Shown here: one piece after another, positions 18,828-46,640 of the stretch
How the letters are laid out: each line of letters opens with the position of its first letter
Position numbering within the stretch: position 1 is the first letter of the stretch
NCBI GenBank assembly: GCA_944324495.1
Contig: CALUWN010000014.1
Location: 1 to 49,748 of the forward strand
Direction of reading: 5' to 3'
DNA from: an uncultured Mucispirillum sp.
Lineage (GTDB): Bacteria; Chrysiogenota; Deferribacteres; Deferribacterales; Mucispirillaceae
DNA length: 49,748 nt
The notes under the pieces: model-generated
What the model was told of the DNA's origin: nothing
The model's database searches: none
The model's input: only the letters and a program-made list of their open reading frames with translations
Translations under genes and position numbers: made by a program

Positions 18828-21077
18828 ATGCAGATAATAATGAATTCATCTATTGCGAAACTTTTAAACCAGTCACCACTTCCTGCTGTTATCATTAATG
18901 GAGAATCAGCCAGTATGTGGTATAATGATGCCTATATTAACCAGTTAAAAGATTACCCTACTTTAATGGATGTATTAAAGAAAATATTTTTGTTTGATGA
19001 GCAAAAAACTTATTCATTTATTAATACTAAAGCCAATGAAAAAATAAGTACTGTTTTTAATAATATTAAATATCATTTACATAAAGAATATAGAAAATCT
19101 ATTAACTTTACTATCATATCAATTATATCAGAAGATAAATACGCTTTTAATAATGATGGCGGCCGTACGGTAGAATATTTCTTTATGCATATACCACAGC
19201 CTTCTGTTATTTTTGATTTTAATACTAGAAAAGTAGAAACAGCAAACCACGCATTTTTAAAAATGTGCGGGCTGCCTATTGAACACATTAAAAGTATGTA
19301 TATAGCAAGCCTTTTCCCAGAAAGTGCTCATTTAATTAATAACTTCCTTAATTCTCAAACACCTTATTCAAAAACATTTTTAATAAACCAGTATAACCTT
19401 GAAAATAATAAAATAATGATTTTTGAAGTAATACCTATAATAAAAGAAGAAGAAAACAATACATATAAAGTTACATTTATGTTAAGGGATATTTTTGGGG
19501 AAATAGAAACCCAAAGAGACCAAATTAGTGAAGATTTTTTAAAATACCAGTTTTTAACTCGTTCCATATCTGACAGTATGCTTATAGTAAACGGCGGTAT
19601 GATTATGGATGTTAATAATGCTGCATGTCAGTTGTGGAAATATGAAAAAGAAGAACTGATTAATAAACCGTTATCTATGCTTATTCCTGATGCTGCAAAC
19701 TATATTGATAATGCGTCTACTGTTAAAGGCAGCTCTATTCGTTTTGTTGGTGTTAAAAAGGATAAAACTCAGTTTAATGGTGCATTAAGAGTACAGGCTT
19801 TTGATAACTTTAATAAAAAATCTATGGTTTATATTATTAGAGATTTAACTGACCATATAGCTGTTGCACGTATTATGGAAGAACAAAGTGATTTTACATC
19901 TGTTATATTTAATACTCAGCCTAATATGATAGCAGTGTTTAATGATGAACATATGCTTACACGCTGCAATAAACTGTTTTTAGATTTTTTTGGCTATGAA
20001 TCTATTGAGGAAGCAATACATAATATTGGCGATATATCTTCAAGATTTATTGCTGGCGATGATAAAATGTTTATCAGCAGTGAACATAAAAATGACTGGT
20101 TTATACTTCCTATAGAGCATCCTAATTTAGAATATATGGTTGGTATGAAAAATGCCCAAGGGGTATATAATATTTTCAGCCTTAAATCTACATTAATGGA
20201 AAATGAAACAAATACTTTTTATGTGGTATCTTTTACTAACATTACAGAAATTATAGAACGTCAGCACTGCTTAAAAGAAGCAAATAATATTATAGCATCA
20301 TTTAATGATGATATGAAAAGTATAATAGAATCTAATATGCTTACATTAGCACAATATCAGAAACTAGCTACCATTGGTACAATGATTAGCTTTATTACTC
20401 ACCAGTGGAAACAGCCTCTTAATGCTATTGGGCTTATTGCACAAAATACTGAGGATATCTTAACAGAAGATGATGAGTTTGATAGAGATGATATTGTTGG
20501 TATGATGCAGTCTATTATGAACCATATTGTTTTTATGTCTGAAACCATGGAAAACTTTAAAAACTTCTTTAAACCAGAAGATGTAAGCGTTCCATTTGCA
20601 GTTATATCATCCATTAAATCAATAATGAGCCTTTTAACTCCTGCACTTAAAAAAAGCAATATAGAAGTAATATATGATATGCCGCAGGAGCTGGAAAGAG
20701 TCCGCGTCTTTGGCTTTATTAATGACTTAAAACAAGTGATTATGAATATTATTGTAAATGGTAAAGATTCTATTACTCTGCGTAAAGAAAGTGAGCCAGA
20801 ATTAAAAGGGCAGATAATAATAAAACTTCATACAGTAAACGATGAACGCATTATTATTTCTATCATAGATAACGGTACTGGTTTAAGCGAAGAAACTATT
20901 AAAAAAATCTTTGAAATGCACTATACCACAAAAGGTGCTAACGGAACAGGTATAGGAATGTATATGGCACAAATGATTATTGATAAAATGGAAGGCACAC
21001 TGGTTGTTGGTAACAGAAATGACGGAGAAAAAGGTGCTCTTATTGAAATCAATATGCCGATATATAAAGAACACTAA
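18828..21077 (+). CDS. Sensor histidine kinase with three PAS-like domains
   Basis: A 749-residue soluble-looking kinase. Three PAS-like regions are recognisable at about 105-225 (FFMHIPQPSVIFDF), 235-345 (SDSMLIVNGGMIMDVNNAAC) and 350-475 (FNTQPNMIAVFNDEHM). The phosphoacceptor is His525 in ITHQWKQPLNAIG, the HQWxQPLN type of H-box. The ATPase domain has an N-box (IIVNGKDSI), DNGTGLSE and GANGTGIGMY. No transmembrane helix is evident, so it probably senses an internal signal. AAGGG precedes the ATG. No response regulator is adjacent. It converges on the TorD gene with three bases between stops; a link to molybdoenzyme control is possible but unproven. Confidence 0.9.
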   Translation: MQIIMNSSIAKLLNQSPLPAVIINGESASMWYNDAYINQLKDYPTLMDVLKKIFLFDEQKTYSFINTKANEKISTVFNNIKYHLHKEYRKSINFTIISIISEDKYAFNNDGGRTVEYFFMHIPQPSVIFDFNTRKVETANHAFLKMCGLPIEHIKSMYIASLFPESAHLINNFLNSQTPYSKTFLINQYNLENNKIMIFEVIPIIKEEENNTYKVTFMLRDIFGEIETQRDQISEDFLKYQFLTRSISDSMLIVNGGMIMDVNNAACQLWKYEKEELINKPLSMLIPDAANYIDNASTVKGSSIRFVGVKKDKTQFNGALRVQAFDNFNKKSMVYIIRDLTDHIAVARIMEEQSDFTSVIFNTQPNMIAVFNDEHMLTRCNKLFLDFFGYESIEEAIHNIGDISSRFIAGDDKMFISSEHKNDWFILPIEHPNLEYMVGMKNAQGVYNIFSLKSTLMENETNTFYVVSFTNITEIIERQHCLKEANNIIASFNDDMKSIIESNMLTLAQYQKLATIGTMISFITHQWKQPLNAIGLIAQNTEDILTEDDEFDRDDIVGMMQSIMNHIVFMSETMENFKNFFKPEDVSVPFAVISSIKSIMSLLTPALKKSNIEVIYDMPQELERVRVFGFINDLKQVIMNIIVNGKDSITLRKESEPELKGQIIIKLHTVNDERIIISIIDNGTGLSEETIKKIFEMHYTTKGANGTGIGMYMAQMIIDKMEGTLVVGNRNDGEKGALIEINMPIYKEH

Positions 21078-21776: not shown

Positions 21777-22187
21777 TGTTTCATCCTTATTATAAAAGTA
21801 TGTAAAAATATATTATGCTTACCTGTTTATTACTTGATAAATCAAATAATTTCAAGTAATAAATATAAACCAAACTTAAAGCATATCTCTAAGTTTGGTT
21901 TATCCTGTTTTATTCTAATTTTGAATACTCTAAAGGCTGTAAATTTTTATTTACAGCATTCAGACTGTCAAAAAAGTTATTTATTATTTCAAACTTATAC
22001 TAAGAAATATTATTCACATTATAAATTAATCTGTTTAACTAAATTTGGAGCATGTATCCAAGTTTAGTTACCATCAAGAGCCTAATAAATGCGGTGAGCA
22101 TTATTAGGCTGGCAAAAAACTGGCGAAAAAATGTATTTTTTCGCCAAGATAAAGGCTGCAAATTTTCATTTACAGCCTTTATATAAT
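21777..22187. repeat. Intergenic spacer with six closely spaced hairpins
   Basis: No convincing gene. Perfect or near-perfect stems occur at 21865-21903 (14 bp), 21936-21957 (9 bp), 22036-22070 (14 bp, one wobble), 22079-22110 (13 bp with a bulge), 22121-22146 (12 bp) and 22151-22180 (13 bp, one mismatch). The second and sixth share AGGCTG(T/C)AAAT and ATTTACAGC arms. The first and third both have A/CTAAxTTTGG-type arms and a GCAT-containing loop. A 77-codon frame across it is probably accidental. Confidence 0.7.
22113..22146 (-). terminator. Probable intrinsic terminator of the molybdoenzyme operon
   Basis: TGGCGAAAAAAT (22121-22132) pairs perfectly with ATTTTTTCGCCA (22135-22146) around a two-base loop. 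On the minus strand it is followed by GTTTTTTG. It lies about 42 bp after the FeS-subunit stop. Confidence 0.65.
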
Positions 22188-22841
22188 TTAGAATTTTTTA
22201 GGTTTTGCCCTAAATAAAAAGTTTGGTTTTGTTTCCATTTTAGATGCAGTATCTTCATGGTTATATGCCATTAATACTGTATCTCTTGCACTTTTTGCAT
22301 CAGGGTATTTTTTCATTAAATAATCATAAGTACCCCAGTCTAATGCACGTGCAAGGCATGAAGCAACACATGCTGGCTGCAGGCCTTCACCAGAAGTTAC
22401 CCTGTCCCAGCACATATCACATTTTCTCATTTTATGCCCTTCCATTACAGTATCCTGTAATATATTTTCATCTTTTGGCTCTTGAAAATCATCTGGTATT
22501 TGTGGTGCTTTATATGGGCATGCTGCAATACAGTCCCCAACACCTTGGCATATGTTTTCATCCACATACACAATACCAGTTTTTTCATCTTTAAATATAG
22601 CCTCTGTAGGGCAAGCGTTCATACATTTTGGGCTGTCGCAGTGGTTACAAGAATATACAGATATAAAAGCCTGCATATTTGGCCATGTACCAGATTCTGC
22701 ATCATGAAGATTACGCAGTTTTGCTCTGCCCGGTTTTAACTGCTGCCAGTCTTTGCAGGCAACAACACAAGTTTGGCAGCCCATACAGCGTGTCTGGTCA
22801 AAAAAGAAATATAATTGGTCTTTTACTAAATTTTCAGCCAT
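22188..22841 (-). CDS. DmsB-like four-cluster iron-sulfur subunit
   Basis: A 217-residue electron-transfer subunit of a DMSO-reductase-family complex. Four Cys groups are visible: CMGCQTCVVAC (19-29), CNHCDSPKCMNACP (65-78), CQGVGDCIAACP (98-109) and CDMCWDRV...CVASC (about 142-163). DmsB-type partners carry four [4Fe-4S] clusters and pass electrons to the catalytic subunit. The third group is odd: the second Cys of CxxCxxC is Val101. E. coli DmsB has Cys102 in this place, and its replacement is known to convert the cluster to [3Fe-4S]. GAGG precedes the ATG. It follows the catalytic gene by 15 bp. No membrane anchor gene (DmsC/NrfD type) is adjacent. Confidence 0.93.
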   Translation of the reverse strand: MAENLVKDQLYFFFDQTRCMGCQTCVVACKDWQQLKPGRAKLRNLHDAESGTWPNMQAFISVYSCNHCDSPKCMNACPTEAIFKDEKTGIVYVDENICQGVGDCIAACPYKAPQIPDDFQEPKDENILQDTVMEGHKMRKCDMCWDRVTSGEGLQPACVASCLARALDWGTYDYLMKKYPDAKSARDTVLMAYNHEDTASKMETKPNFLFRAKPKKF

Positions 22842-22856
22842 AATAGTCTACCTCAC

Positions 22857-25800
22857 TTATGCTTTTGAAATTTTAACACGGCAGTCGTTAGCTAATGTCA
22901 TACCTTGAGCCATACGAGAAGGCCTTGTGTTTGTTAATGTGTTTGCACAGCCGCCAACATCTATGTTTTTATAAGTTTTACCAGATGGAGATGTCCAGCT
23001 TTCAACAGGGTTATACCAAGAACCATGGCCGATATATACAGCATTCGGGCTTACCCTGTTACTTACGTGAGCAGAAGCTACTATTGCACCCCTGTCGTTT
23101 TCTATAACAACTAAATCACATTCTGCAATACCTTTATCTTTTGCAGTTACTGGGTTTATCCAGCAAGTTTCATATACACCATCATCAAGTGGGTTTGCAG
23201 GGTTTATATCTGCTGTATCTATTGTTTTACCAAAATGAGCAGCATTACCTTGTGCATCTCTTTTTGAGTATTTTAACTCGTTTAAGAAACCACTTGAGTT
23301 GTGTGTAGAGTGGGAACGGTACATTATGTGCCAAGTGTTTAATGTTAAATCATAATCAGCTTTACCGTATGTTTTACCAAATGGGTGGCTGTTATCTGCG
23401 TGCCTGCCTTCAATTAATGGTATATACATAGGTACTGGATATACATATCTTGGTTTATTTGATGCTGCAGTAACTGCTGGTGTACCATTATTATTTACAG
23501 CTGATGTACTTTTTGTATAAAGTTTACCATTGTTTAATAATGCACCACCGTTAATTTTACCTGCACCACCTTGCTTAATTGTGATACCGTCATCACCTAA
23601 TGTGGCAAGTGAAGTATAGTCTGTTGTATCTTCATTTATAAAATACCTTGCTTCATAGTCTTCCATATAACGAAGTGAGTATGCTTCAATTCTACCAGTG
23701 TATGTGTTTACTTTATTAGCTTTAGGGTCCTGCCTGAATTTTGCATAGAAAGTATTTACGCCTTTTTCATCATAAGCTGTGCCTAAGCCGTTTGTAAATT
23801 CGCTGTTATTTGCATAGCCTTGGTTATCTTTTAATGGGTCTTTACTTTTTACAACAAAGCCTTTTTTAGCTTCATCCCAACCCATCACTTTACCTGCTGC
23901 ATTAGTTGGTTTAGTTTCAGCAGCTTCATAAGATGCTTTCCAAAAAGCTTCTTCAAATTTACCGCGGTTAGCTACTATATTATCAGCAGTAATGCCTTGA
24001 GTATCAATACCGTTTGCATAGTTTTTACCACCTGCATCGCCTGTAGCTTGAGCAAGTATAAGGCCAATTTCAAGTTCGCATAATGCTTCACCCGGTGGGT
24101 TAATAGCTTTACCAGTAAATACATAGTTTCTACCGCCACCCCAAGAGTTGCCAGAAACTGTATATCTTTCAAAACCCATAGAGCCCGGTAATACCACATC
24201 TGCAAAACGGCATGACGGAGTCATAACGTTATCGCAAACCGTAATAAAATCTAACATATTTTCTTTATCATTATCTTTTAACTGATAAATGGCAGCATGT
24301 AAGTTAGAGTTACCTGCAGTAACAGCTACCTGATTACCAGACATTTGAGTAATCCAGCCAACAGGTGTGGAAACTGTCTGATTAGAACCAGTATTCCACC
24401 TTGCAGGGCGTACTTTTTTAGGCTTAACAGCAAATTTGCCATCTTCATATACAACTTTATCTACTGTAATAGGAGCTTGAAGAGATGCTTCCACGTTTTC
24501 AAGCCAAGTAAAACAAGGTGTAACGTTTGGAGTTGTGCCCCATGCTTCCATGTTATAAGAAGTATGTAATTTACCAACACTTGGGTCTACTGTGCAGAAA
24601 TTAAAGTTTGCCCTGGCACCAAGTGTATCAGCACCAGCAGTTACAGCATTAAGAGCTTTTCTATTATAACCGCCTTTTGCAGGGTCAGTTAATATATATG
24701 TGCCTTTATCTGAACTAAAGTTATCAACCACTTTTTTAGGAGCACCAGTTGCTCTTGCACCAAAACCAGCTGGTTTACCGCCTTTTTTACCTACTGAACC
24801 GTAAGATGTACCCTCTTGTCCATAGTTTCTAACAAGTGTATTAAAGCATATCCAAGAACGTACAATTTCTTCACTTTCTGTACAACGTTGGAAACCAGAG
24901 CCAGTCCATACAGTTACTTTTTCACTTAAAAAGTCATTTGCAAGCTGTTCTATTAATGCTTTATCAATACCTGTGATTTTTGAAGCCCACTCAGTATTTT
25001 TTTCAACCTGACCATAGCAGAATGTGTGTTTTTTAGCTAAATCATCATCTTTTGCAGCTGTCCAAGATTTTGTTTTGTAATCATAATCTGCAAGTTTATA
25101 GTTACGTACGTTATAGCCTATTTGGTCTGGGTAGATTGAAGCAGCTTTATTATAACCTTCATCTACAAGTTTAGTTGATTTACCAAAAATATAAGCAGAC
25201 CAAGATGTACCCGGCTGAACTTTTAATACATCATTAGTTAATGTATTAAATGGAGCAGCTGCTGTGTTTTGGTATGAACTGTTTACATCTGCACCGTCTG
25301 CATCATCTGTATCAAAGAAACCAAAAAGGTATTTACCAATAGCTTTTCTTAAATCAGCAGCTGATGCATCTTTTTTAAGACCATATAAACCTTTTAATTT
25401 TGCAAGTGCATCTTTATTTGTCATAATATAGTGAACCATACCCATAACTAAGGCTGCATCTGTACCGTTTGCGATACCTACATATTTAAAATTAGGGTGG
25501 CTTTCCATAAGAGCAGCAGTTTGAGAATATCTGCCGTCAATTAAATATATTTTTGCATTTGGGTTTTTATCTTTTAATTGTGCAAGGTAATATGATATTT
25601 GAGGTGTCCACTGAGTTTCACTCATATTGTGGCCCCATATAACTATTACATCAGCATTAACTGCATCACTGTATGAGTTACTTGCTGCATCATGAGCCTG
25701 AGAATATGCATAATAACCTTGAATAATAGGTGTTACATGCTCCCAAGCTGGCCAAGAATAGTCTTGAATAGGTCCAAAAGCAGAACGGAAACCAGTATCA

Positions 25801-26459
25801 AAACCTTCAAAACCATGGGTAACACCACCGTCATGAGTTAAGTATGTACCAATACCTGCAACAGCTTTACCGTCCACGCCTAAAGTACCGCCAGAACCTG
25901 AAGCATAAAGCCCATAAACAGAACCATTACCACAGTTTGCTTTAACTTTTGCCATTTTAGTTTTGTAGTACTCAGAAACTTCTTTCCATGTAGCTTTTTT
26001 GAATGTGGTTAAATCACCACGAGTGCCAGTTTGAATTAAAGGATATTTTAAACGGTTTGAATAGTAAAGAGTAGATTTACGGCTTCTACATCTTGGGCAA
26101 GCTCTGTCCTGTGGGTTATCACCCTTATCTAACTCTCTTTCAACACGCTCATCTGTAACGATACGCTTAACAGCACCATCTTTTACAAATGCTTTTAAAA
26201 CGCAGTTTTCACCACCGCAGTTGTGAGGAGTAGCACCCCAGAATATTTCTCCATCCAATGTGCCAGCAGCCTTGTCTGATGATAATGCAGGTGTGTAATT
26301 ATAGTTGCTGTCAGTAACTACACTGGTAGTATTATCACCTGCAGCCTTTTCATCTTTTGACTTAGTACAGCCAAAAAGTGAAACGGCAGCACCAAGTGCA
26401 AGAGAACCTTTTAAAAAAGTACGTCTTGAAACTTGATTTTTTGAAATTTCTTCTCCCAT
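22857..26459 (-). CDS. Tat-exported DMSO-reductase-family molybdopterin oxidoreductase
   Basis: About 1200 residues, much longer than DmsA (about 800). Start chosen at the ATG at 26459, with GGAGG five bases upstream. The leader has a twin-arginine motif (SRRTFLKGS, residues 11-19) and then SLFGC, so Cys31 may be lipidated. The N-terminal FeS region reads ATPHNCGGENC (Cys81, Cys86), then ACPRC (Cys121, Cys124): Thr replaces the usual first Cys, one residue is added before Cys86, and Cys124 is extra. IQDYSW aligns with GDYS of DMSO reductases, making Ser235 the predicted Mo ligand. The C-terminal region (SPNAVYIGHGSWYNP) matches the molybdopterin-dinucleotide-binding domain. Substrate not predictable. 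Probably periplasmic, with the downstream FeS subunit. Confidence 0.92.
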   Translation of the reverse strand: MGEEISKNQVSRRTFLKGSLALGAAVSLFGCTKSKDEKAAGDNTTSVVTDSNYNYTPALSSDKAAGTLDGEIFWGATPHNCGGENCVLKAFVKDGAVKRIVTDERVERELDKGDNPQDRACPRCRSRKSTLYYSNRLKYPLIQTGTRGDLTTFKKATWKEVSEYYKTKMAKVKANCGNGSVYGLYASGSGGTLGVDGKAVAGIGTYLTHDGGVTHGFEGFDTGFRSAFGPIQDYSWPAWEHVTPIIQGYYAYSQAHDAASNSYSDAVNADVIVIWGHNMSETQWTPQISYYLAQLKDKNPNAKIYLIDGRYSQTAALMESHPNFKYVGIANGTDAALVMGMVHYIMTNKDALAKLKGLYGLKKDASAADLRKAIGKYLFGFFDTDDADGADVNSSYQNTAAAPFNTLTNDVLKVQPGTSWSAYIFGKSTKLVDEGYNKAASIYPDQIGYNVRNYKLADYDYKTKSWTAAKDDDLAKKHTFCYGQVEKNTEWASKITGIDKALIEQLANDFLSEKVTVWTGSGFQRCTESEEIVRSWICFNTLVRNYGQEGTSYGSVGKKGGKPAGFGARATGAPKKVVDNFSSDKGTYILTDPAKGGYNRKALNAVTAGADTLGARANFNFCTVDPSVGKLHTSYNMEAWGTTPNVTPCFTWLENVEASLQAPITVDKVVYEDGKFAVKPKKVRPARWNTGSNQTVSTPVGWITQMSGNQVAVTAGNSNLHAAIYQLKDNDKENMLDFITVCDNVMTPSCRFADVVLPGSMGFERYTVSGNSWGGGRNYVFTGKAINPPGEALCELEIGLILAQATGDAGGKNYANGIDTQGITADNIVANRGKFEEAFWKASYEAAETKPTNAAGKVMGWDEAKKGFVVKSKDPLKDNQGYANNSEFTNGLGTAYDEKGVNTFYAKFRQDPKANKVNTYTGRIEAYSLRYMEDYEARYFINEDTTDYTSLATLGDDGITIKQGGAGKINGGALLNNGKLYTKSTSAVNNNGTPAVTAASNKPRYVYPVPMYIPLIEGRHADNSHPFGKTYGKADYDLTLNTWHIMYRSHSTHNSSGFLNELKYSKRDAQGNAAHFGKTIDTADINPANPLDDGVYETCWINPVTAKDKGIAECDLVVIENDRGAIVASAHVSNRVSPNAVYIGHGSWYNPVESWTSPSGKTYKNIDVGGCANTLTNTRPSRMAQGMTLANDCRVKISKA

Positions 26460-26792: not shown

Positions 26793-29700
26793 CTACACTG
26801 CCACAGCAAATGAATCAATAATTTCAACTATTTCGGTGGCTTCATTTTCTGTGAAAAGTTCTAATATACCCCCATGGTTGATATATGGTGCTTTTGAAAG
26901 TATGGTTTTATCTTTAATAAATCCATTACGGCGTATATTTTCTATTAGCTGGTATATAAATTCTATTTGGTTATGGTTATAGTTATTTTCATTAATATAT
27001 TTTGCAAATTTTTTAAGTATAACATCATTATCACGACCAGTGATACTTAATATAAATTCAGTTACTGGCATTTGTCCTGCTGCCTGCCTGTACTGTTCTT
27101 CTGTGCCTAAATCCTGCCATAAAATACGTTCTAAATCTCTAATATCTGCTTTTGATAATTTTTGGTTAGTATAAAGTTTATTAATAACACCACTTGTGCA
27201 GCGTTTTTTTAATTCCTGCTCTACTTTCTTTTTATAGTTTTCTAAATATTTAGTTTTAATAACAGGTTCACTTTCTGCTGCTTCTGTAACTATCATTTTA
27301 TCTTCAAAATTAGTAAAATAGATTTCTTTAGTAGTGCCATCAATATACATTACAAGTGGTCTTAATATTTGCCTTATATTATCAAGTTCTTTAATACTTG
27401 TCTGTTGAGTAACCATGCCATTTGATATTTCTTCTAATAAGTCCTTATGTTTATTTACAATAGGCACTTTCTTTTCCAGCAGTTTATCAGCAATAATATT
27501 AAGCTGATTAATATATCGCATACTATTTTGCTGTCTTAAATTTGCAATCATAATGTTATATATAAGCTCATCAAATTTTAGTGATTTAATATCATCATTT
27601 ATCATCGGCACACATGGTGCAAGTTTTTCAGATAATGATGTAACTTTGCTTGATGTTAAATTATCAAGTGCATTATCTTTTGAATATTCTTTTACAAGCT
27701 TTATATTCTGCCTTACACTTATATCATTTTCTGGCAGAGTTTTTATAGTATTATGCAGGTCATTTTTATATTGATTATATATTTCTTCATGTTCTTTTTT
27801 ATTCTGTATAAAAAGGCATAAATCAAGCTTTTGTTCAAAAAGTTTTGCCATAATACTTTTTGGGCTGCTGTCATTATCCAGCCTGTTTTCTTCTTCGCCA
27901 AAATATTCAAAGTTATTGCATAAATCAAATATGAGAAAATGAGTTTTATCTTCCCCATTAATAAGTTGAGGGCAAAGTCTTGTACCTCTGCCTATCATCT
28001 GTATAAATTTTGAGTATGATTTTACAGGTTTAAAAAATACAAGATTTAAGCAGTCTGGAATATCTACACCAGTATCAAGCATATCAACAGATATTGCAAT
28101 TCGTGCTTTATGGTCGCCTGTTGCAAACTGGTTTACAAGTAAAGTTGAATGTTCCACATAGTTATCAATTAAAATACAGTAATCAAGCAGGCTAGGAAAA
28201 GTTTCTCTAAATATTTTTATAATAAGTTCTGCATGTTTATGGTTTCTAGCAAATATTATAGTTTTTCCAAGGGTATTTCCTTCATTAATATATAGCCCAT
28301 GTTTTAGTAACATTTGCAGTGCCTTTTTTATGGTATCTTTATTAAATATAGTTCTATTTATATGGCTTTCTTCTATGCTTTCAGGTACATTGCCTTCATC
28401 ATCTGCAAAAAGTTCTTCGTATTCTTCTTTTTCTTCTGGGCTTAAATCTTTATAGTGTATACCTCTGTTTAGTATATCAAGTTTATAGTTTGCCACTTGA
28501 TAATTTACCAGATATCCGTCATTTACAGCCTTTTCCAGTTCATAGCCATAAGTTGGGGTTCTATTTTCAAGGTCAAATATTTCATAAGTATTTCTGCCTA
28601 TTTCATTTTTTGGGGTGGCAGTTAGCCCTACCAGCATACTGTCAAAATATTTGAAAATATCTTGATATTTGTTGTATATACTCCTGTGGGCTTCATCTAA
28701 TATTATAAGGTCAAAATGCCCCACAGAGTATGGGTTTGCTTGTGGGTTATTAAGAAGGTTTCGCATGGTTTGGTATGTGGAAAATATAAATGGCATACTG
28801 TAATTAATTTCAGTAGAATTTTCATCATCTGATATGTTGCATAAATTAAAGATTAGATTATCTTTTAAATCTTTTGCTGCATTGTATGCCTGTTTAACAA
28901 GAGAAACCCTGTCTGCCAAAAATAATACATTTTGCACCCAGCCATAGCGGCTTAATACATCTACAAGGGAAAGTATAGTTCTTGTTTTGCCACTTCCTGT
29001 AGCCATTACAAGCAGTGCTTTTCGTCTATTTTCTTGAAAAGCAGAACATATGCTTTTTACTGCCTGTATTTGATAATACCTGTCTGCTATTTCTGGGCAG
29101 ATTTCTACATTATTAATATCTTTTCTATTTTCTAAAATATTTGCAGTTTTTAATAAATCTTCTTCAGAATAAAAACCATATATTTCTCTTGGGTGATAAT
29201 ATCCTTCTTGCCATATAGTAAAATTATAACCATTGCTTAAAAATATAACTGGTTTTATGCCAAATTTTTCTTTTAATGCTATGCAGTATTCTCTTGCCTG
29301 CTCTATACCTGCTTCTTCATACCTATCTTCTCGTTTTGCTTCTATTATGGCAATAGGTGTGCCTTCTTTATTAAGCAGAACATAATCTATCTTACCCTTC
29401 CCAGTTTTTGAATATTTATATTTATCTATAATATATTCATTTATCCAGTTTTCACCTTCTTTCCAGCCAGCTTCTCTAAGCATTGTATCAATGTAGACTT
29501 TTCTTGTTTCTTTTTCTGATAAGTTTAGTGGTTTTGGTATAAATTTATCTTTTTTAGAAAGCCTTATTTTAGTATGGTCAATTTTTTCTTCTTCTGAAAC
29601 TTTTACAAGCGGTGTTTCTTCATCTATATTTTCTTTTTGTATTGGAAGTGTATTTTTTATAATATCAATATCAAACTTATTATTAATATATTTACTTTCT

Positions 29701-30113
29701 TTAGAGTAGCAATAATATATAAAATCACATACTATAAAAAGGTTTTCTAAAGCAACTTCTGCTTCATTTAATGTGGTTTTATTATTAAAACTGTGGGCAG
29801 AGCGGTTGCCTAATATCCGCAGGAAATCAATACTTTTATATATTTCATTTCCCACAATATCACGAAAAGTTTTTATGGTAATAAGTTTAGAAAGTGGGTC
29901 TTTTTCTATATTTATCTTTTTCGTTTCAGTGTTTAATGCACTATCGTATGTATATATCCACTTTACAGCATATTCTAAAGCCTTTCTAGTGAGCATAATG
30001 GTAGTATCAGGGTCTTGTGGTTGAAAATTATAAGAACTTTCTGCCACTACTGCCACATGGTATAAACCTTCAAACTGTTTTTCTTCTGACAAAAAGTAGA
30101 AGTTTGATGCCAT
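26793..30113 (-). CDS. hsdR: Type I restriction enzyme HsdR (motor/nuclease) subunit
   Basis: A 1106-residue subunit that translocates and cuts unmodified DNA. The N-terminal ~110 residues resemble DUF4145 (TIMLTRKALEYAVKWIY). Then follows the HsdR nuclease domain with the catalytic EAKRE (IAIIEAKRED, about residue 257). The SF2 motor has Walker A ATGSGKT (about 370), DEAHRS (about 471) and TATPKNEIG, then motif VI in QMIGRGTRLCPQ. Its ATG overlaps the FRG gene stop (TAATG). The operon order hsdM-hsdS-FRG-hsdR implies one active system. All key motifs look intact. Confidence 0.95.
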   Translation of the reverse strand: MASNFYFLSEEKQFEGLYHVAVVAESSYNFQPQDPDTTIMLTRKALEYAVKWIYTYDSALNTETKKINIEKDPLSKLITIKTFRDIVGNEIYKSIDFLRILGNRSAHSFNNKTTLNEAEVALENLFIVCDFIYYCYSKESKYINNKFDIDIIKNTLPIQKENIDEETPLVKVSEEEKIDHTKIRLSKKDKFIPKPLNLSEKETRKVYIDTMLREAGWKEGENWINEYIIDKYKYSKTGKGKIDYVLLNKEGTPIAIIEAKREDRYEEAGIEQAREYCIALKEKFGIKPVIFLSNGYNFTIWQEGYYHPREIYGFYSEEDLLKTANILENRKDINNVEICPEIADRYYQIQAVKSICSAFQENRRKALLVMATGSGKTRTILSLVDVLSRYGWVQNVLFLADRVSLVKQAYNAAKDLKDNLIFNLCNISDDENSTEINYSMPFIFSTYQTMRNLLNNPQANPYSVGHFDLIILDEAHRSIYNKYQDIFKYFDSMLVGLTATPKNEIGRNTYEIFDLENRTPTYGYELEKAVNDGYLVNYQVANYKLDILNRGIHYKDLSPEEKEEYEELFADDEGNVPESIEESHINRTIFNKDTIKKALQMLLKHGLYINEGNTLGKTIIFARNHKHAELIIKIFRETFPSLLDYCILIDNYVEHSTLLVNQFATGDHKARIAISVDMLDTGVDIPDCLNLVFFKPVKSYSKFIQMIGRGTRLCPQLINGEDKTHFLIFDLCNNFEYFGEEENRLDNDSSPKSIMAKLFEQKLDLCLFIQNKKEHEEIYNQYKNDLHNTIKTLPENDISVRQNIKLVKEYSKDNALDNLTSSKVTSLSEKLAPCVPMINDDIKSLKFDELIYNIMIANLRQQNSMRYINQLNIIADKLLEKKVPIVNKHKDLLEEISNGMVTQQTSIKELDNIRQILRPLVMYIDGTTKEIYFTNFEDKMIVTEAAESEPVIKTKYLENYKKKVEQELKKRCTSGVINKLYTNQKLSKADIRDLERILWQDLGTEEQYRQAAGQMPVTEFILSITGRDNDVILKKFAKYINENNYNHNQIEFIYQLIENIRRNGFIKDKTILSKAPYINHGGILELFTENEATEIVEIIDSFAVAV

Positions 30114-31072
30114 TATTTGCCGTATCTCCCTTTAAAATCTGCTACTATATTTCTACATACTCTATCCACATCATCATGAAAAAGAGTGCTTTCTGTAATA
30201 TTAAGCATTTTTAATTCTTCTAACAAGTGTTTTTTACTTTTTGCAGGTATAATATATCGTGCAATAATATTTTTATGCTCTTTTGGGATATGGGAAAGAT
30301 TTGTATTTTTAATTATAATTTTATTTGTATAATCATGGTTTAAAACATATTTATAATCATTAAGTATTAAAATAAAATTTCCTTGTTGTAAATAAAGTCG
30401 TTCAAACAGTCTTGGTGGATATATAAAATACATATCATTAATTACTTTATTTATAAAATATTCACCATTATTGTATCTGATGTATTCTTTAATATTTGTA
30501 GTAGCAATATTTTTTCTAACAGCCAATTCATAAAATAATGTTTCTAATGTTATACTATGAGTGGCAATAATATCTGACCTACCCATATATTTGACAATAT
30601 CATGATATAATGGATTTTCAAAATATGTTTCATACTGATTACCTATTATAAATATTTCACCATCTTTATTATTATCAGGATTATTTTTATCTTCGCAAGC
30701 AAAATATAATGCAACTAATGGGTTTGCTGTAATATCTAAAAGTCTTGTGGGAATGCCGTAGTGTTGTAGTTTTACAAGTAAATCAAGAGGATTATCCGTT
30801 TCAGAAAAAAGAACAGGATATTCATTTTTTGCTTTATTTATTAAAGCTACTTCTAATGAACTGACATAAAAAGGTACATCTTTTTGTATTCTGCTTATTG
30901 ATGGAACAAGTTCATATTCCTTATTATGTTGCCCCCTGTAAAACAAATCAATAGTATATTTTCTTTTTTCACTAAACTCTAAATTTTTGTACCTTTCTAA
31001 CTCTTTTACATTATTCAGTTTTTCCATAAATTCAGCAATGGTGTTTATTTCTTCAAGTTTTTCTTCGCTCAT
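30113..31072 (-). CDS. FRG domain protein embedded in the restriction operon
   Basis: A 319-residue protein with the FRG domain. It contains LFYRGQHNKEYELVPSISR (about 43-61), where F-R-G is Phe44, Arg46, Gly47, and LQHYGIPTRLLDITANPLV (about 102-120), the second conserved block. FRG proteins are common in phage and defence loci, but their chemistry is not established. The gene fills the space between hsdS (four bases away) and hsdR (overlapping TAATG), so its expression is tied to the restriction system. It may act as an accessory or backup effector; that is inference. Confidence 0.88.
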   Translation of the reverse strand: MSEEKLEEINTIAEFMEKLNNVKELERYKNLEFSEKRKYTIDLFYRGQHNKEYELVPSISRIQKDVPFYVSSLEVALINKAKNEYPVLFSETDNPLDLLVKLQHYGIPTRLLDITANPLVALYFACEDKNNPDNNKDGEIFIIGNQYETYFENPLYHDIVKYMGRSDIIATHSITLETLFYELAVRKNIATTNIKEYIRYNNGEYFINKVINDMYFIYPPRLFERLYLQQGNFILILNDYKYVLNHDYTNKIIIKNTNLSHIPKEHKNIIARYIIPAKSKKHLLEELKMLNITESTLFHDDVDRVCRNIVADFKGRYGK

Positions 31073-31075
31073 ATT

Positions 31076-32131
31076 CTACCCAAAATATTCCTGCATTAAA
31101 GCATTGTATAATGTTTCTAACTGATTAAGACTTGATTTTATATTTTCTTTATTTTTTTCCACCTGCTCCACAAACTCTGCAAACTGGTTTTGTAAATCAA
31201 GCGGGGGGATAATTAAAGCACAGCTTTTTATCATAGGTGAAGTTAATTGAGCTACTCCAGAACCAGAACTTTTTATATTTATACTATTTATTTGATGGCA
31301 TAAAAATAATATTGAAAAATTATTGCTTGGAATTACACATAAAAGCCTTACTATTGGATAAAACGGTTTAAAATGTGGGAAACAATATCCAATAGTTCCT
31401 CTAGCCGATACTGTAACACAAGGTTGTTGTATTCTCGCATTATTCGTATATCCATATAGCATATTTTCTGCTAACCCATTACTATATATAGGAATATTAT
31501 AATCTTCATTTTTTTCTTTAGAAAAATTATCTAATGGAACATCACCACCAACAACAACATTACACACTTCCCCTAATTTTTTCTTTTCCCAGCCTTTTGG
31601 GTTTAATACAGGGTCGCCAAACATTTCAATAAATTTAGATTTTACTAAAATATCCAGTTTCTCAAGCTGTTCTTTTCTCATACTGATAAGTGATGTAACC
31701 TTATCTAATACCGCCACTATTTCTTTTTGAGTTTGGACTGGTGGAATAGAAATAATAATATTTTTTAATGATTCCTGATTTAATTTTGGTGGAATACTTT
31801 TTGTTAATAAGTTATATATATCTACTTTTTTTAATGCATAGTATAGAAACATTAAGTTTAAGGTATTATTTTTTGGTTGAATTATGTGAGCATGATTATT
31901 TACCCAAAACTTACCACTAGCAATATTCACAACAGGTGAGTTATCTTTATTTATAACACTTCCATCCTCACCTACTAATATGTATAAACCATCAAAAATA
32001 TATTTATCTACATAATCTTGAATACCATTGGCTCCATAATAAGGATATATACCTTTTACTCTTTTATGCTTTGCCACAGGTTTTCTTAAACTGTCATATA
32101 TATTTATGACTTCCCCTAACTTTACTTTCAT
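31076..32131 (-). CDS. hsdS: Type I restriction specificity subunit HsdS
   Basis: A 351-residue DNA-recognition subunit shared by the methylase and nuclease. It has two half-repeats, each a target recognition domain followed by a helical spacer. The first ends SIPPVQTQKEIVAVLDKV and the second IIPPLDLQNQFAEFVEQVE, the typical PPxxxQ boundary. The second half begins at about residue 181 (GWEKKKLGEVCNVVVGGDVP). Its ATG overlaps the hsdM stop (ATGA). The target cannot be predicted by eye. No inverted second hsdS copy is nearby. Confidence 0.94.
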   Translation of the reverse strand: MKVKLGEVINIYDSLRKPVAKHKRVKGIYPYYGANGIQDYVDKYIFDGLYILVGEDGSVINKDNSPVVNIASGKFWVNNHAHIIQPKNNTLNLMFLYYALKKVDIYNLLTKSIPPKLNQESLKNIIISIPPVQTQKEIVAVLDKVTSLISMRKEQLEKLDILVKSKFIEMFGDPVLNPKGWEKKKLGEVCNVVVGGDVPLDNFSKEKNEDYNIPIYSNGLAENMLYGYTNNARIQQPCVTVSARGTIGYCFPHFKPFYPIVRLLCVIPSNNFSILFLCHQINSINIKSSGSGVAQLTSPMIKSCALIIPPLDLQNQFAEFVEQVEKNKENIKSSLNQLETLYNALMQEYFG

Positions 32132-33642
32132 ATCATTCTCTCTAAGTCTGATAATCCGCTGGATATTTCTTTTTCCATTTCCTGCAATTCTTTTAAAATA
32201 TCTTGGACTGGTGGATATTCTACTGGGGTATATTCCACTTCTTTATATTTATTTATAGATAAATCATAGCCGTTATTTACTATTTCCTGCCTTGGTACAA
32301 AAAAGCTTTTATCTGTCCGTTTATTATCCTTATCTTTTTCCCTGTTGTGAAATCTGTTTATAATATCTGCTATATCACTTTTTTCTATCTTTTCCCTTTT
32401 ATCATCAAGTGAGTAGCCATCACTTTCCATATTATAAAACCATACATTATCTGTATCTTGGTGGTTTGTTTTAGTAAATATTAGGATACCTGTGGATACT
32501 CCAGAATATGGCTTAAAAACACCAGAAGGCATTGAGATTACAGCTTCTAATTTTTGGTTATCCACAAGCTCTTTTCTAACAGCTTTATGGGCGTTTGATG
32601 AGCCAAATAATACACCATCTGGTACAATAGAAGCACATCTGCCACCTAATTTTAATGACTTTATAAATAATGCTATAAAAAGCAGCTCTGTTTTTTTAGT
32701 TTCCGTTAGTGCCAGTAAGTCTGGTGAAGTGATAGATGTATCAATAGAGCCAGTAAATGGAGGGTTTGCAAGGATTAATGAATATTTATCCCTGTCTGTA
32801 TTTTGTTTTGAAATACTGTCTTTATATAATACATTTGGGTTATCTATACCGTGAGCCACTAAGTTCATAGCAGCTATTCGTAACATGGTGCTGTCCATAT
32901 CATAGCCTGTAAATGTATTATTATTAAATTTATCACGGTTTGCTGCATTATGATATATTTCTTTTTCATAGTTTTTCTTTAAATATTCACCAGCTGCTAC
33001 TAAAAAGCCTGCTGTGCCGCATGATGGGTCGCATATTGTATCGCTTATCTCTGGTTTCATAAGCTCCACCATCATATCTATAATATGCCTTGGTGTTCTA
33101 AACTGACCGTTTGTGCCTGATGTGGATATTTTAGAAAGTATATACTCGTATACATCGCCTTTTATATCTTTATCAGTTGACTGAAGATTAGAAATAAGAT
33201 TATACATTTCCTGGCATTTTATAAGTATGGAGTTTAATTTTAATGCTGTATCTATTTTAAATACCGCATCTTTCATATATTTGGCATAGTTGTTATCACT
33301 TTCTTTATACATATTTTTTATAAATGGAAATATACCATATACCATAAGATTATACTGATTTTCTGCATTTTGCTGTATAAGGTTGCTCCATTTATAATCT
33401 GACTTTTTAAATGTTATTTTTTTACCGTCTATATCTTTTTCTTCTTCACCAGAAAAAATACTGTCGTATTTATAGCCATAAAGTTTAGATTCTTTAAGTT
33501 TTCTATCGTCCATTGCCCCAAGGTCGTGTATAAACATAAGATATGTAATCTGCTCCACAACAGTAAGCGGGTTTGTAATACCACCAGACCAAAAAGCATT
33601 CCATATATCATCTATCTTATTCTTTAACTCACCAGTAATCAT
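32128..33642 (-). CDS. hsdM: Type I restriction N6-adenine methylase HsdM
   Basis: About 504 residues. Start chosen at the ATG at 33642 (MITGELKNKIDDIW) because GGAG lies six bases upstream; an upstream in-frame extension to 33711 has no such signal and reads through the leader. The N-terminal helical HsdM_N domain is followed by the SAM-binding DPSCGTAGFLVAAG (about 203) and the catalytic NPPF (about 291, in LILANPPFTG), diagnostic of N6-adenine methylation. First gene of the operon. Confidence 0.95.
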   Translation of the reverse strand: MITGELKNKIDDIWNAFWSGGITNPLTVVEQITYLMFIHDLGAMDDRKLKESKLYGYKYDSIFSGEEEKDIDGKKITFKKSDYKWSNLIQQNAENQYNLMVYGIFPFIKNMYKESDNNYAKYMKDAVFKIDTALKLNSILIKCQEMYNLISNLQSTDKDIKGDVYEYILSKISTSGTNGQFRTPRHIIDMMVELMKPEISDTICDPSCGTAGFLVAAGEYLKKNYEKEIYHNAANRDKFNNNTFTGYDMDSTMLRIAAMNLVAHGIDNPNVLYKDSISKQNTDRDKYSLILANPPFTGSIDTSITSPDLLALTETKKTELLFIALFIKSLKLGGRCASIVPDGVLFGSSNAHKAVRKELVDNQKLEAVISMPSGVFKPYSGVSTGILIFTKTNHQDTDNVWFYNMESDGYSLDDKREKIEKSDIADIINRFHNREKDKDNKRTDKSFFVPRQEIVNNGYDLSINKYKEVEYTPVEYPPVQDILKELQEMEKEISSGLSDLERMI

Positions 33643-33691
33643 ATTATCTCCAATATATATTAATGTGATAGTACAATATAATATACCACCA

Positions 33692-33706
33692 CGACACTCA
33701 CTGTCG
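33692..33706 (-). other. Inverted repeat in the hsdM leader
   Basis: CGACA-CTCAC-TGTCG lies in the 5' leader of hsdM, about 20-35 bases after the predicted transcription start. It could be an operator or a small RNA hairpin that modulates expression of the restriction operon. Short and unproven. Confidence 0.3.
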
Positions 33707-33727
33707 CACATAATTTATTTACGATAC

Positions 33728-44576: not shown

Positions 44577-46094
44577 ATGGGAAAAATTAAAAAAGTATTA
44601 GCTGCTAACCGTGGAGAGATTGCAATCAGGGTATTCCGTGCTGCAAAAATGCTCCGCCTTGAAACTGTAGCAGTTTACACTCATGTAGATAGAGGTGCTC
44701 CTCACGTTAGATATGCTGATGAAGCATACTGTATATCTGACAGTGATGATGATACTTCATATTTAAAGCCTGAAAAAATATTAGAAATAGCTAAAAAAAC
44801 AGGGGCAGCAATTCACCCGGGTTATGGGTTTTTATCTGAAAATGCTGACTTTGTTAAGGCATGTGAAGAAGCTGGTGTAATATTTATTGGCCCTTCTGCT
44901 CAACATATTATAGATATGGGCTCTAAAACTGGTGCTAGAAAAATTATGTCTGATGCAGGCGTACCTATTGTTCCGGGTACTAAAGACCCTATTAAAAATG
45001 TTGATGACCTTTATAAAACTGCTGATAATGTAGGTTTTCCAGTTATGCTTAAAGCAGTTGCTGGTGGCGGCGGTAAAGGTATGAGGCTTGTACACAAAAG
45101 AGAAGATTTAGAAGATATGTTTAATATGGCAGTATCAGAAGCAGAACGTGCTTTTGGTAATGGCGATGTTTATATTGAAAAATATGTGGAAGAGCCACAC
45201 CACGTGGAAGTACAGGTTATTGGTGATAAACATGGTAATGTTATCCACCTTTATGACAGGGAGTGTTCTATTCAAAGAAGACACCAAAAAGTTATTGAGG
45301 AAGCACCTTCACCATATATCAGCCCAGAAACAAGGCAAAAAATGCTTGAAGTAAGCGTTAATGCCTGCAAAAAAATCGGCTACTATAGTGCTGGTACATT
45401 AGAATATATGGTAGATAAAAACCAAAACTTCTACTTTTTAGAAATGAATACAAGGCTGCAGGTTGAGCACCCTGTTACAGAGATGATTACAGGGGTTGAC
45501 TTAGTGCGTGATATGATTTCTGTTGCTAATGGTGATGTACTGCCATATAAACAGGATGAAATATTAAGACAAGGCCATGCTATTGAATGCCGTATATATG
45601 CAGAAGACCCAGAAAATGGGTTTATCCCATCCCCTGGTACAATTACGGTACACGAACCACCTTCTGGTAGAAATGTTCGTGTAGACCACGCAGCTCATGA
45701 AGGCTATAATGTTCCACTTTTTTACGACCCGATGATAGCAAAACTTACTACATGGGGTAGAACAAGGGAGAGAGCTATACAAAACATGGAACGCTCACTT
45801 TTGGAATATAAAATATTAGGTATTAAAACTACAATACCATTCCATCAGCGTGTTATGAAAAACGAAACGTTCTTAAGCGGTGTTTATGATACTACTTTTA
45901 TAGACACTAAGTTTGATAAGGAAGACTTAAAACGTCGTAAAGAATTAGACCCAACTGTAGCGATTGTTGCAGCAGCATTAATGCAGTATATTTCCGAGCA
46001 GGAGGCAGCGGCAAAAGCTACTACTGTTCCAGAAGTGGGCGAATCTTTATGGAAACACTATGGCAAAATGCAAAAAATTGCCAACAGGTTCTAA
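44577..46094 (+). CDS. accC: Biotin carboxylase subunit
   Basis: A 505-residue ATP-grasp enzyme that carboxylates biotin using bicarbonate. Motifs: LAANRGEIAIRVFRAAKML, IHPGYGFLSENADF, the ATP loop GGGGKGMRLV, EAPSPYISP and FLEMNTRLQVEHPVTEM. At 505 residues it exceeds E. coli AccC (449) by a C-terminal tail of about 50, as in anaerobic propionyl-CoA or pyruvate carboxylase A subunits. GGAG precedes the ATG. It acts with the flanking carboxyltransferase and biotin carrier. Confidence 0.92.
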   Translation: MGKIKKVLAANRGEIAIRVFRAAKMLRLETVAVYTHVDRGAPHVRYADEAYCISDSDDDTSYLKPEKILEIAKKTGAAIHPGYGFLSENADFVKACEEAGVIFIGPSAQHIIDMGSKTGARKIMSDAGVPIVPGTKDPIKNVDDLYKTADNVGFPVMLKAVAGGGGKGMRLVHKREDLEDMFNMAVSEAERAFGNGDVYIEKYVEEPHHVEVQVIGDKHGNVIHLYDRECSIQRRHQKVIEEAPSPYISPETRQKMLEVSVNACKKIGYYSAGTLEYMVDKNQNFYFLEMNTRLQVEHPVTEMITGVDLVRDMISVANGDVLPYKQDEILRQGHAIECRIYAEDPENGFIPSPGTITVHEPPSGRNVRVDHAAHEGYNVPLFYDPMIAKLTTWGRTRERAIQNMERSLLEYKILGIKTTIPFHQRVMKNETFLSGVYDTTFIDTKFDKEDLKRRKELDPTVAIVAAALMQYISEQEAAAKATTVPEVGESLWKHYGKMQKIANRF

Positions 46095-46109
46095 GGGGAG
46101 GAAGTTTAT

Positions 46110-46640
46110 ATGAAATGTAGCAATGTAGCAGCAACTAAATATTATGCTATTCCTGAAGGATACGATAAAGAATCTGTAGTGCAAATTAAATGCGTTGGTG
46201 CAAATTCATTTATATTAAGTGTTGACGGAAAAGATATTGAAGTTGATTTCCAAAGGACAGGGCATAATTTATACTCAATTATTATTGATAATAAATCATA
46301 CGAAATAGATATTCATAACAGCCATGAATCATATGATGTACTTGTAAATGGTGACTATTTTAAAATTGATATTTTAGACGAACTTAAAAAAGTTTTAAGA
46401 GACAGAGTATCAAAAGGTTTACAAGGCAGGCAGGTTATTGCAGCCCAAATGCCGGGTATTGTTACACAAGTTATGGTAGAAGAAGGTCAGGAAGTGGAAG
46501 AAGGCCAGCCATTACTTATACTTGTTGCCATGAAAATGGAAAACCAAATAAAAGCACCAAAAGCAGGTATTGTTCAAAATATCTATGTGGAAGCTAACCA
46601 AACTGTTGCAATTGGCGATAAGTTAGCTGTAATAGAATAA
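46110..46640 (+). CDS. Biotin carboxyl carrier protein
   Basis: A 176-residue carrier. The C-terminal ~75 residues form a biotinyl domain with the modified Lys142 in VAMKMEN, flanked by hydrophobic hammerhead strands (MPGIVTQVMVEEGQEVEEG). The N-terminal ~95 residues are a beta-rich region that would dock the other subunits. A GGGGAGGAA site precedes the ATG. Last gene of the carboxylase operon, ending 25 bp before a strong terminator. A biotin ligase is needed but is not in the window. Confidence 0.9.
   Translation: MKCSNVAATKYYAIPEGYDKESVVQIKCVGANSFILSVDGKDIEVDFQRTGHNLYSIIIDNKSYEIDIHNSHESYDVLVNGDYFKIDILDELKKVLRDRVSKGLQGRQVIAAQMPGIVTQVMVEEGQEVEEGQPLLILVAMKMENQIKAPKAGIVQNIYVEANQTVAIGDKLAVIE

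Follow-up and report, generated by a model that had tools for sequence, protein, structure and literature searches.

The window, the whole 49,748-nucleotide stretch analysed here, is contig 14 of a 2.43-Mb Mucispirillum genome (G000) that is 98% complete. On its minus strand lies the gene for a large predicted molybdoenzyme (subunit A), followed by genes for a DmsB-like ferredoxin subunit (B) and then a TorD-like chaperone:

22857..26459, minus strand: subunit A (catalytic), 1200 aa; its domains predict a bis-MGD molybdoenzyme in the DMSO reductase superfamily that is exported by Tat
26370..26459, minus strand: Tat signal peptide, residues 1-30 (SRRTFLK ... VSLFG), from Pfam TAT_signal and the family N-termini
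26367..26369, minus strand: lipobox Cys31, predicted lipidated residue, from family conservation and the presence of an LspA gene
26202..26219, minus strand: first half of the FS0 motif, C81-x4-C86, with no Cys at the canonical -4 position, from the family alignment
26088..26099, minus strand: second half of the FS0 motif, C121-x2-C124, in which C124 exchanges with Cys/His at -4
25755..25757, minus strand: Ser235, predicted Mo ligand, invariant in homologues and aligned with the DYS of DmsA/TorA
22188..22841, minus strand: subunit B, a DmsB-like four-cluster ferredoxin subunit by profile matches, 217 aa
21081..21776, minus strand: TorD/DmsD-like maturation chaperone, 231 aa (PF02613, 2.6e-12; TorD model, 3.4e-9)
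18828..21077, plus strand: convergent PAS sensor histidine kinase, a neighbour also in the orthologous loci of 92-93% identity

The reading frame of A runs from an ATG at 26459, directly preceded by a good Shine-Dalgarno match (GGAGG), to a stop at 22857 (1200 aa plus stop). Together with Pfam matches to TAT_signal, Molybdopterin and Molydop_binding, this agrees with the 1200-residue Tat oxidoreductase that an earlier note on this DNA had described. Subunit B lacks a signal peptide; in the family its gene is next to that of A at 65 of 71 loci. The gene for A is the sole member of its family in G000; its orthologous loci show 92-93% protein identity, and sister genomes carry high numbers of paralogues. 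Besides A, G000 encodes four PF00384 proteins, with NapA, PhsA, formate dehydrogenase N and NuoG as their respective nearest relatives. The gap between B and the chaperone gene (21777-22187) measures 411 nt and contains repeated segments, whereas L003, an orthologous locus, has just 65 nt there. On their upstream side the reductase genes are directly adjoined (positions 26793-33711) by type I restriction-modification-like genes and a gene for an FRG-domain protein at a lower G+C content (0.298); in L003 a different gene (695 aa) is found at this place.

The AlphaFold model of A, which is of low confidence in the signal, the linker and several insertions, has DMSO reductase (4dmr) as its closest fold (TMt 0.78). 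Both domains, the modelled bis-MGD fold and the predicted Ser ligand of the metal place the protein in the DMSO reductase (MopB) superfamily. Identity to E. coli DmsA is about 29% over aligned residues, with 12 insertions of at least 12 aa in A. The statement that A is some 400 residues longer than DmsA, with insertions in several places, is borne out in these terms (386 extra residues), but length cannot be regarded as a peculiarity of this protein, since family members span about 910-1290 aa and 1200 aa is ordinary among them. The best curated match is TIGR02166 (DmsA/YnfE, DMSO/selenate reductase), with a score of 281.6 bits that falls below the cut-off of 777.7 for DmsA/YnfE membership, and in a quick tree the family forms one clade beside DmsA/YnfE (SH-aLRT 84, modest support for a sister relation to DmsA). 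By profile and fold, the nearest proteins are DMSO and TMAO reductases, followed by pyrogallol transhydroxylase among others. Searches of the PDB, NCBIfam and the plasmid collection turned up no close relative that has been characterised, and to that extent the suggestion of an undescribed enzyme is upheld, its role in respiration being putative; we know of no experiment on any member of the family.

Ser235, which had been proposed as the Mo ligand, aligns with the Ser of the GDYS motif of DmsA and TorA and is invariant in 51 of 51 homologues. The FS0 motif is rearranged: DmsA has CxxxCxxxC and, later, CxRG, whereas in A the position four residues ahead of C81 is not a Cys and CxRC stands at 121-124, and its sequence fails the DmsA/YnfE pattern CxxxCxxxC...C at the first Cys. 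Among the 49 judgeable sequences, C124 is present in 43 that have neither Cys nor His at -4, and the remaining six have Gly at 124 together with Cys (n=5) or His (n=1) at -4. The exchange is perfect across these homologues (Fisher p 7e-8, a value that ignores shared descent), and as the five sequences with Cys at -4 form one clade in the tree, it rests on very few independent events. In the simplest reading of the alignment, C124 would have taken over the place of the canonical first FS0 ligand, and the exchange offers a clean test case for the evolutionary movement of a ligand within a cluster. In subunit B, 15 of the 16 cluster Cys positions are nearly invariant, and Cys at position 101 is kept in 7 of 66 sequences; the B protein of the window has 15 of the 16, with Val101 in place of the remaining one. 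By analogy with NarH, for which a [3Fe-4S] cluster is known, such a cluster may be present in B at the site lacking Cys 101.

The N-terminus of A, SRRTFLKGSLALGAAVSLFGC-TKSKDEK, combines a Tat motif with Cys31 in a lipobox-like end. Family Tat signals were read in 24 genomes with just two requirements, a Tat motif and, further downstream, the cluster motif; in 62 of the 64 readable signals the hydrophobic stretch ends in a Cys, within LYGC, MYGC, VYGC, VAGC, LFGC, IIGC and similar variants, and the linker behind it is polar and variable. In the two without this Cys (L068, L072) an AxA-like site follows a little later, as expected if all others use the Cys, and G000 has a gene for lipoprotein signal peptidase (LspA). 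The lipobox-like Cys to which the earlier note had drawn attention is thus a conserved family feature, and with its twin-arginine motif and a lipobox Cys after the hydrophobic region A has the sequence hallmarks of Tat lipoproteins, so that Cys31 is strongly predicted to be lipidated. A NapA-like protein of the same genome (L061 6742-9216, contig 11) likewise has a Tat signal that ends in a lipobox-like SLGC, followed by a Thr/Ala-rich linker, and Tat lipoprotein molybdoenzymes may therefore be common in this lineage.

The absence of an anchor subunit, also claimed previously, was confirmed: no DmsC/NrfD-type gene lies in the A-B-chaperone cluster, and PF03916 (NrfD) and PF04976 (DmsC) have zero matches in the 98%-complete genome in searches whose controls worked, while a PF14589 search, without a match in the genome or for its control, carries no weight. 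A small membrane anchor encoded between B and the chaperone gene was considered and rejected, the gap containing no minus-strand ORF above 40 aa. The idea that a lipid tether explains the absent DmsC/NrfD could hold for the anchoring role but is incomplete, as a lipid does not replace the quinol oxidation performed by DmsC. On the quinol side, the one quinol-dehydrogenase candidate found in G000 is a NapC/NrfH-type protein with seven CxxCH motifs on contig 19.

On balance, A-B is probably a terminal reductase from the DMSO reductase superfamily, made up of two subunits and anchored by a lipid, that is fed by cytochromes and uses an oxygen-atom-transfer acceptor. In the cytoplasm, the TorD-like chaperone would help subunit A to fold around its molybdenum cofactor. 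Subunit A would carry B, which has no signal, through the Tat system; it would then be cut before Cys31 and lipid-anchored there, with the complex most likely residing on the outer membrane. Electrons would reach B from c-type cytochromes rather than from a DmsC-like quinol oxidase and would pass through the clusters of B and FS0 to the Ser-ligated Mo. We infer both the direction of the reaction and the acceptor, for which Ser ligation and kinship make an S- or N-oxide the first guess. Such an enzyme would share with E. coli DmsABC/YnfEFGH the Tat-exported A subunit with Ser-ligated Mo, the four-cluster B subunit and the TorD/DmsD chaperone, and differ from them in the lipobox, the 386 extra residues, the rearranged FS0 motif, the one cluster Cys lacking in B and the absence of DmsC.

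Where the electrons may come from is suggested by the relatives. A gene for a protein of about 500 aa and one for a protein of about 150-170 aa with five or six CxxCH motifs, referred to here as the porin and the pentaheme cytochrome, recur beside A-B: of the 71 family locus entries (these include a few overlaps, and many contigs end nearby), 38 have one or both at a distance of up to 4.5 kb, as do 7 of the 11 loci with complete context. Examples of the pair are:

L048 5342-7253: barrel and pentaheme pair beside A-B
L052 9237-11291: barrel and pentaheme pair beside A-B
L041 2959-4945: barrel and pentaheme pair beside A-B
L083 9869-11911: barrel and pentaheme pair beside A-B

In genome G041 a porin-cytochrome-A-B unit is repeated in tandem. 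The porin model, of modest confidence (pTM 0.64), consists of a signal peptide helix and a 22-strand barrel, and its Foldseek matches are outer-membrane barrels; neither protein reaches a Pfam cut-off or has a PDB relative by sequence. These genes may supply electrons to A-B in the relatives. Neither was found in G000, where an assembly gap is possible, so that the conduit of the relatives cannot be assumed for the enzyme of the window, around whose gene MtrA/MtrB-type decaheme and porin genes are also absent. The closest relatives, G001 and G006, have both genes away from A, in a stand-alone locus with further cytochromes (L133, L134). A pair of genes at 44577-46640 of the window, suggested by their sizes as porin and cytochrome, has the sequence character of biotin carboxylase and biotin carrier proteins and contains no CxxCH.

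A sharper version of the preferred explanation is that A-B sits outside the outer membrane and receives its electrons through a porin and a cytochrome, as Shewanella DmsAB, which is extracellular, does with DmsEF (PMC9048795, PMC9732548); G000 would then use another conduit or have lost its own recently. The A-B pair without a quinol anchor and the added outer-membrane barrel and multiheme cytochrome genes of the relatives resemble the DmsEFAB arrangement, and the recurrence of these genes beside A-B, their tandem units, their retention elsewhere in G001 and G006 and the lipobox on A all speak for this scenario. Unlike in Shewanella, however, barrel and cytochrome belong to unnamed families, the cytochrome has five CxxCH rather than ten, and both are missing from G000. 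We regard surface display, including the replacement or loss of the conduit in G000, as a serious possibility that falls somewhat short of being probable.

The anchoring itself may be questioned. If Cys31 were unlipidated, A would be an ordinary soluble Tat enzyme of the periplasm that takes its electrons from a NapC-like protein, which is how TorA-type enzymes operate; the NapC/NrfH-like protein of G000 could serve as such a donor, and the Phe at lipobox position -2 of A, where most relatives have Tyr, is unusual. Retention of the Cys in 62 of 64 signals in front of a variable, polar linker, and the replacement of the Cys by an AxA-like site in the two exceptions, make a soluble enzyme unlikely.

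With regard to the substrate, A shares the predicted Ser ligand of Mo with the TorA/DorA TMAO and DMSO reductases, the closest solved structures by both profile and fold. TorA and DorA are single-subunit enzymes without an N-terminal Fe-S cluster and without a B subunit. Aromatic dehydroxylation and the reduction of oxyanions are possible alternatives to an S- or N-oxide. A dehydroxylase or transhydroxylase for aromatic compounds of the diet or the host, in the manner of catechol dehydroxylases or pyrogallol transhydroxylase, would suit the gut niche, in which Actinobacteria possess numerous catechol dehydroxylases that depend on molybdenum (PMC11887054), and pyrogallol hydroxytransferase, besides being among the next fold matches, is the best relative of the family profile outside the DMSO/TMAO group (E 5e-63). 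We nevertheless consider it rather improbable, as sequence and fold are closer to the S-/N-oxide reductases, catechol dehydroxylase sequences lying outside this comparison. In the same genus, an "uncharacterized reductase system" of M. schaedleri, described as homologous to DMSO reductase and 32-36% identical with DMSO, tetrathionate and TMAO reductases, is up-regulated in the inflamed mouse gut (Loy 2017, PMC5285517); it is a possible, though not an established, orthologue of A. An ordinary DmsABC enzyme with its anchor encoded elsewhere, from where anchors can in principle come, is very improbable given the lack of DmsC/NrfD matches in G000 and the presence of a polytopic neighbour (a 6-TM protein upstream of A) in just three of 71 family loci, all three related.

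The relatives of the putative lipid-anchored reductase have a further property. In 27 family genes, from five genomes of the same genus (G002, G003, G004, G007, G009) and one of the same family (G011), a run of 8-10 G immediately follows the lipobox, within the linker:

L042, L044, L045, L052, L054, L055, L058, L076, L078, L081-L084: tract-bearing loci
L086-L091, L093-L099: tract-bearing loci, continued

In fifteen of the 27, the signal and the rest of the gene are in different frames, compared with none of 35 genes without a tract (p 2e-7). In the 23 tract genes checked, the frame behind the tract is open for more than 1000 codons and close orthologues are 76-97% identical, so that they do not count as decayed genes. 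Orthologues occur in different states: L076 (10 G) is in frame, whereas L098, L084 and L089 (9 G, 76-86% identity) are out of frame, and L097 is in frame, whereas L081 (79% identity) is not. These paralogues of the sister genomes are likely to be phase-variable; sequencing or assembly errors in homopolymers could account for some of the out-of-frame genes, though not for the existence of the tracts. The window has no run of at least 8 G, in its reductase gene or elsewhere, and all three orthologues of that gene have an open reading frame; phase variation thus concerns the family and not the gene of the window. Elsewhere in G000 (L113-L132), about 30 runs of 9-11 G occur, many of which fall within a gene or immediately in front of one. 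Some of these genes have products that resemble envelope proteins or lipoproteins, and the runs are candidate contingency loci. Our literature search found neither a description of terminal reductases subject to phase variation in Mucispirillum nor a paper on phase variation or surface electron transfer in this genus.

We tentatively entertain a wider scenario, which we hold to be credible without calling it probable: the Mucispirillum lineage may have expanded a family of lipid-anchored molybdenum reductases at its surface, joined to a new porin-pentaheme conduit and, in several species, to switching by G tracts, and the gene of the window may be a tractless member that is fixed ON. Mucispirillum is a core bacterium of the mucus layer in mice that is linked to gut inflammation and has been described to respire nitrate and fumarate (PMC5285517). 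If the tracts switch, the choice of respiratory enzyme would be random from cell to cell, and if the wider scenario is true, a clonal population would hedge over respiratory acceptors in the gut. An envelope reductase whose relatives appear to be wired to the outer membrane and to be phase-variable would widen the known respiration of gut bacteria.
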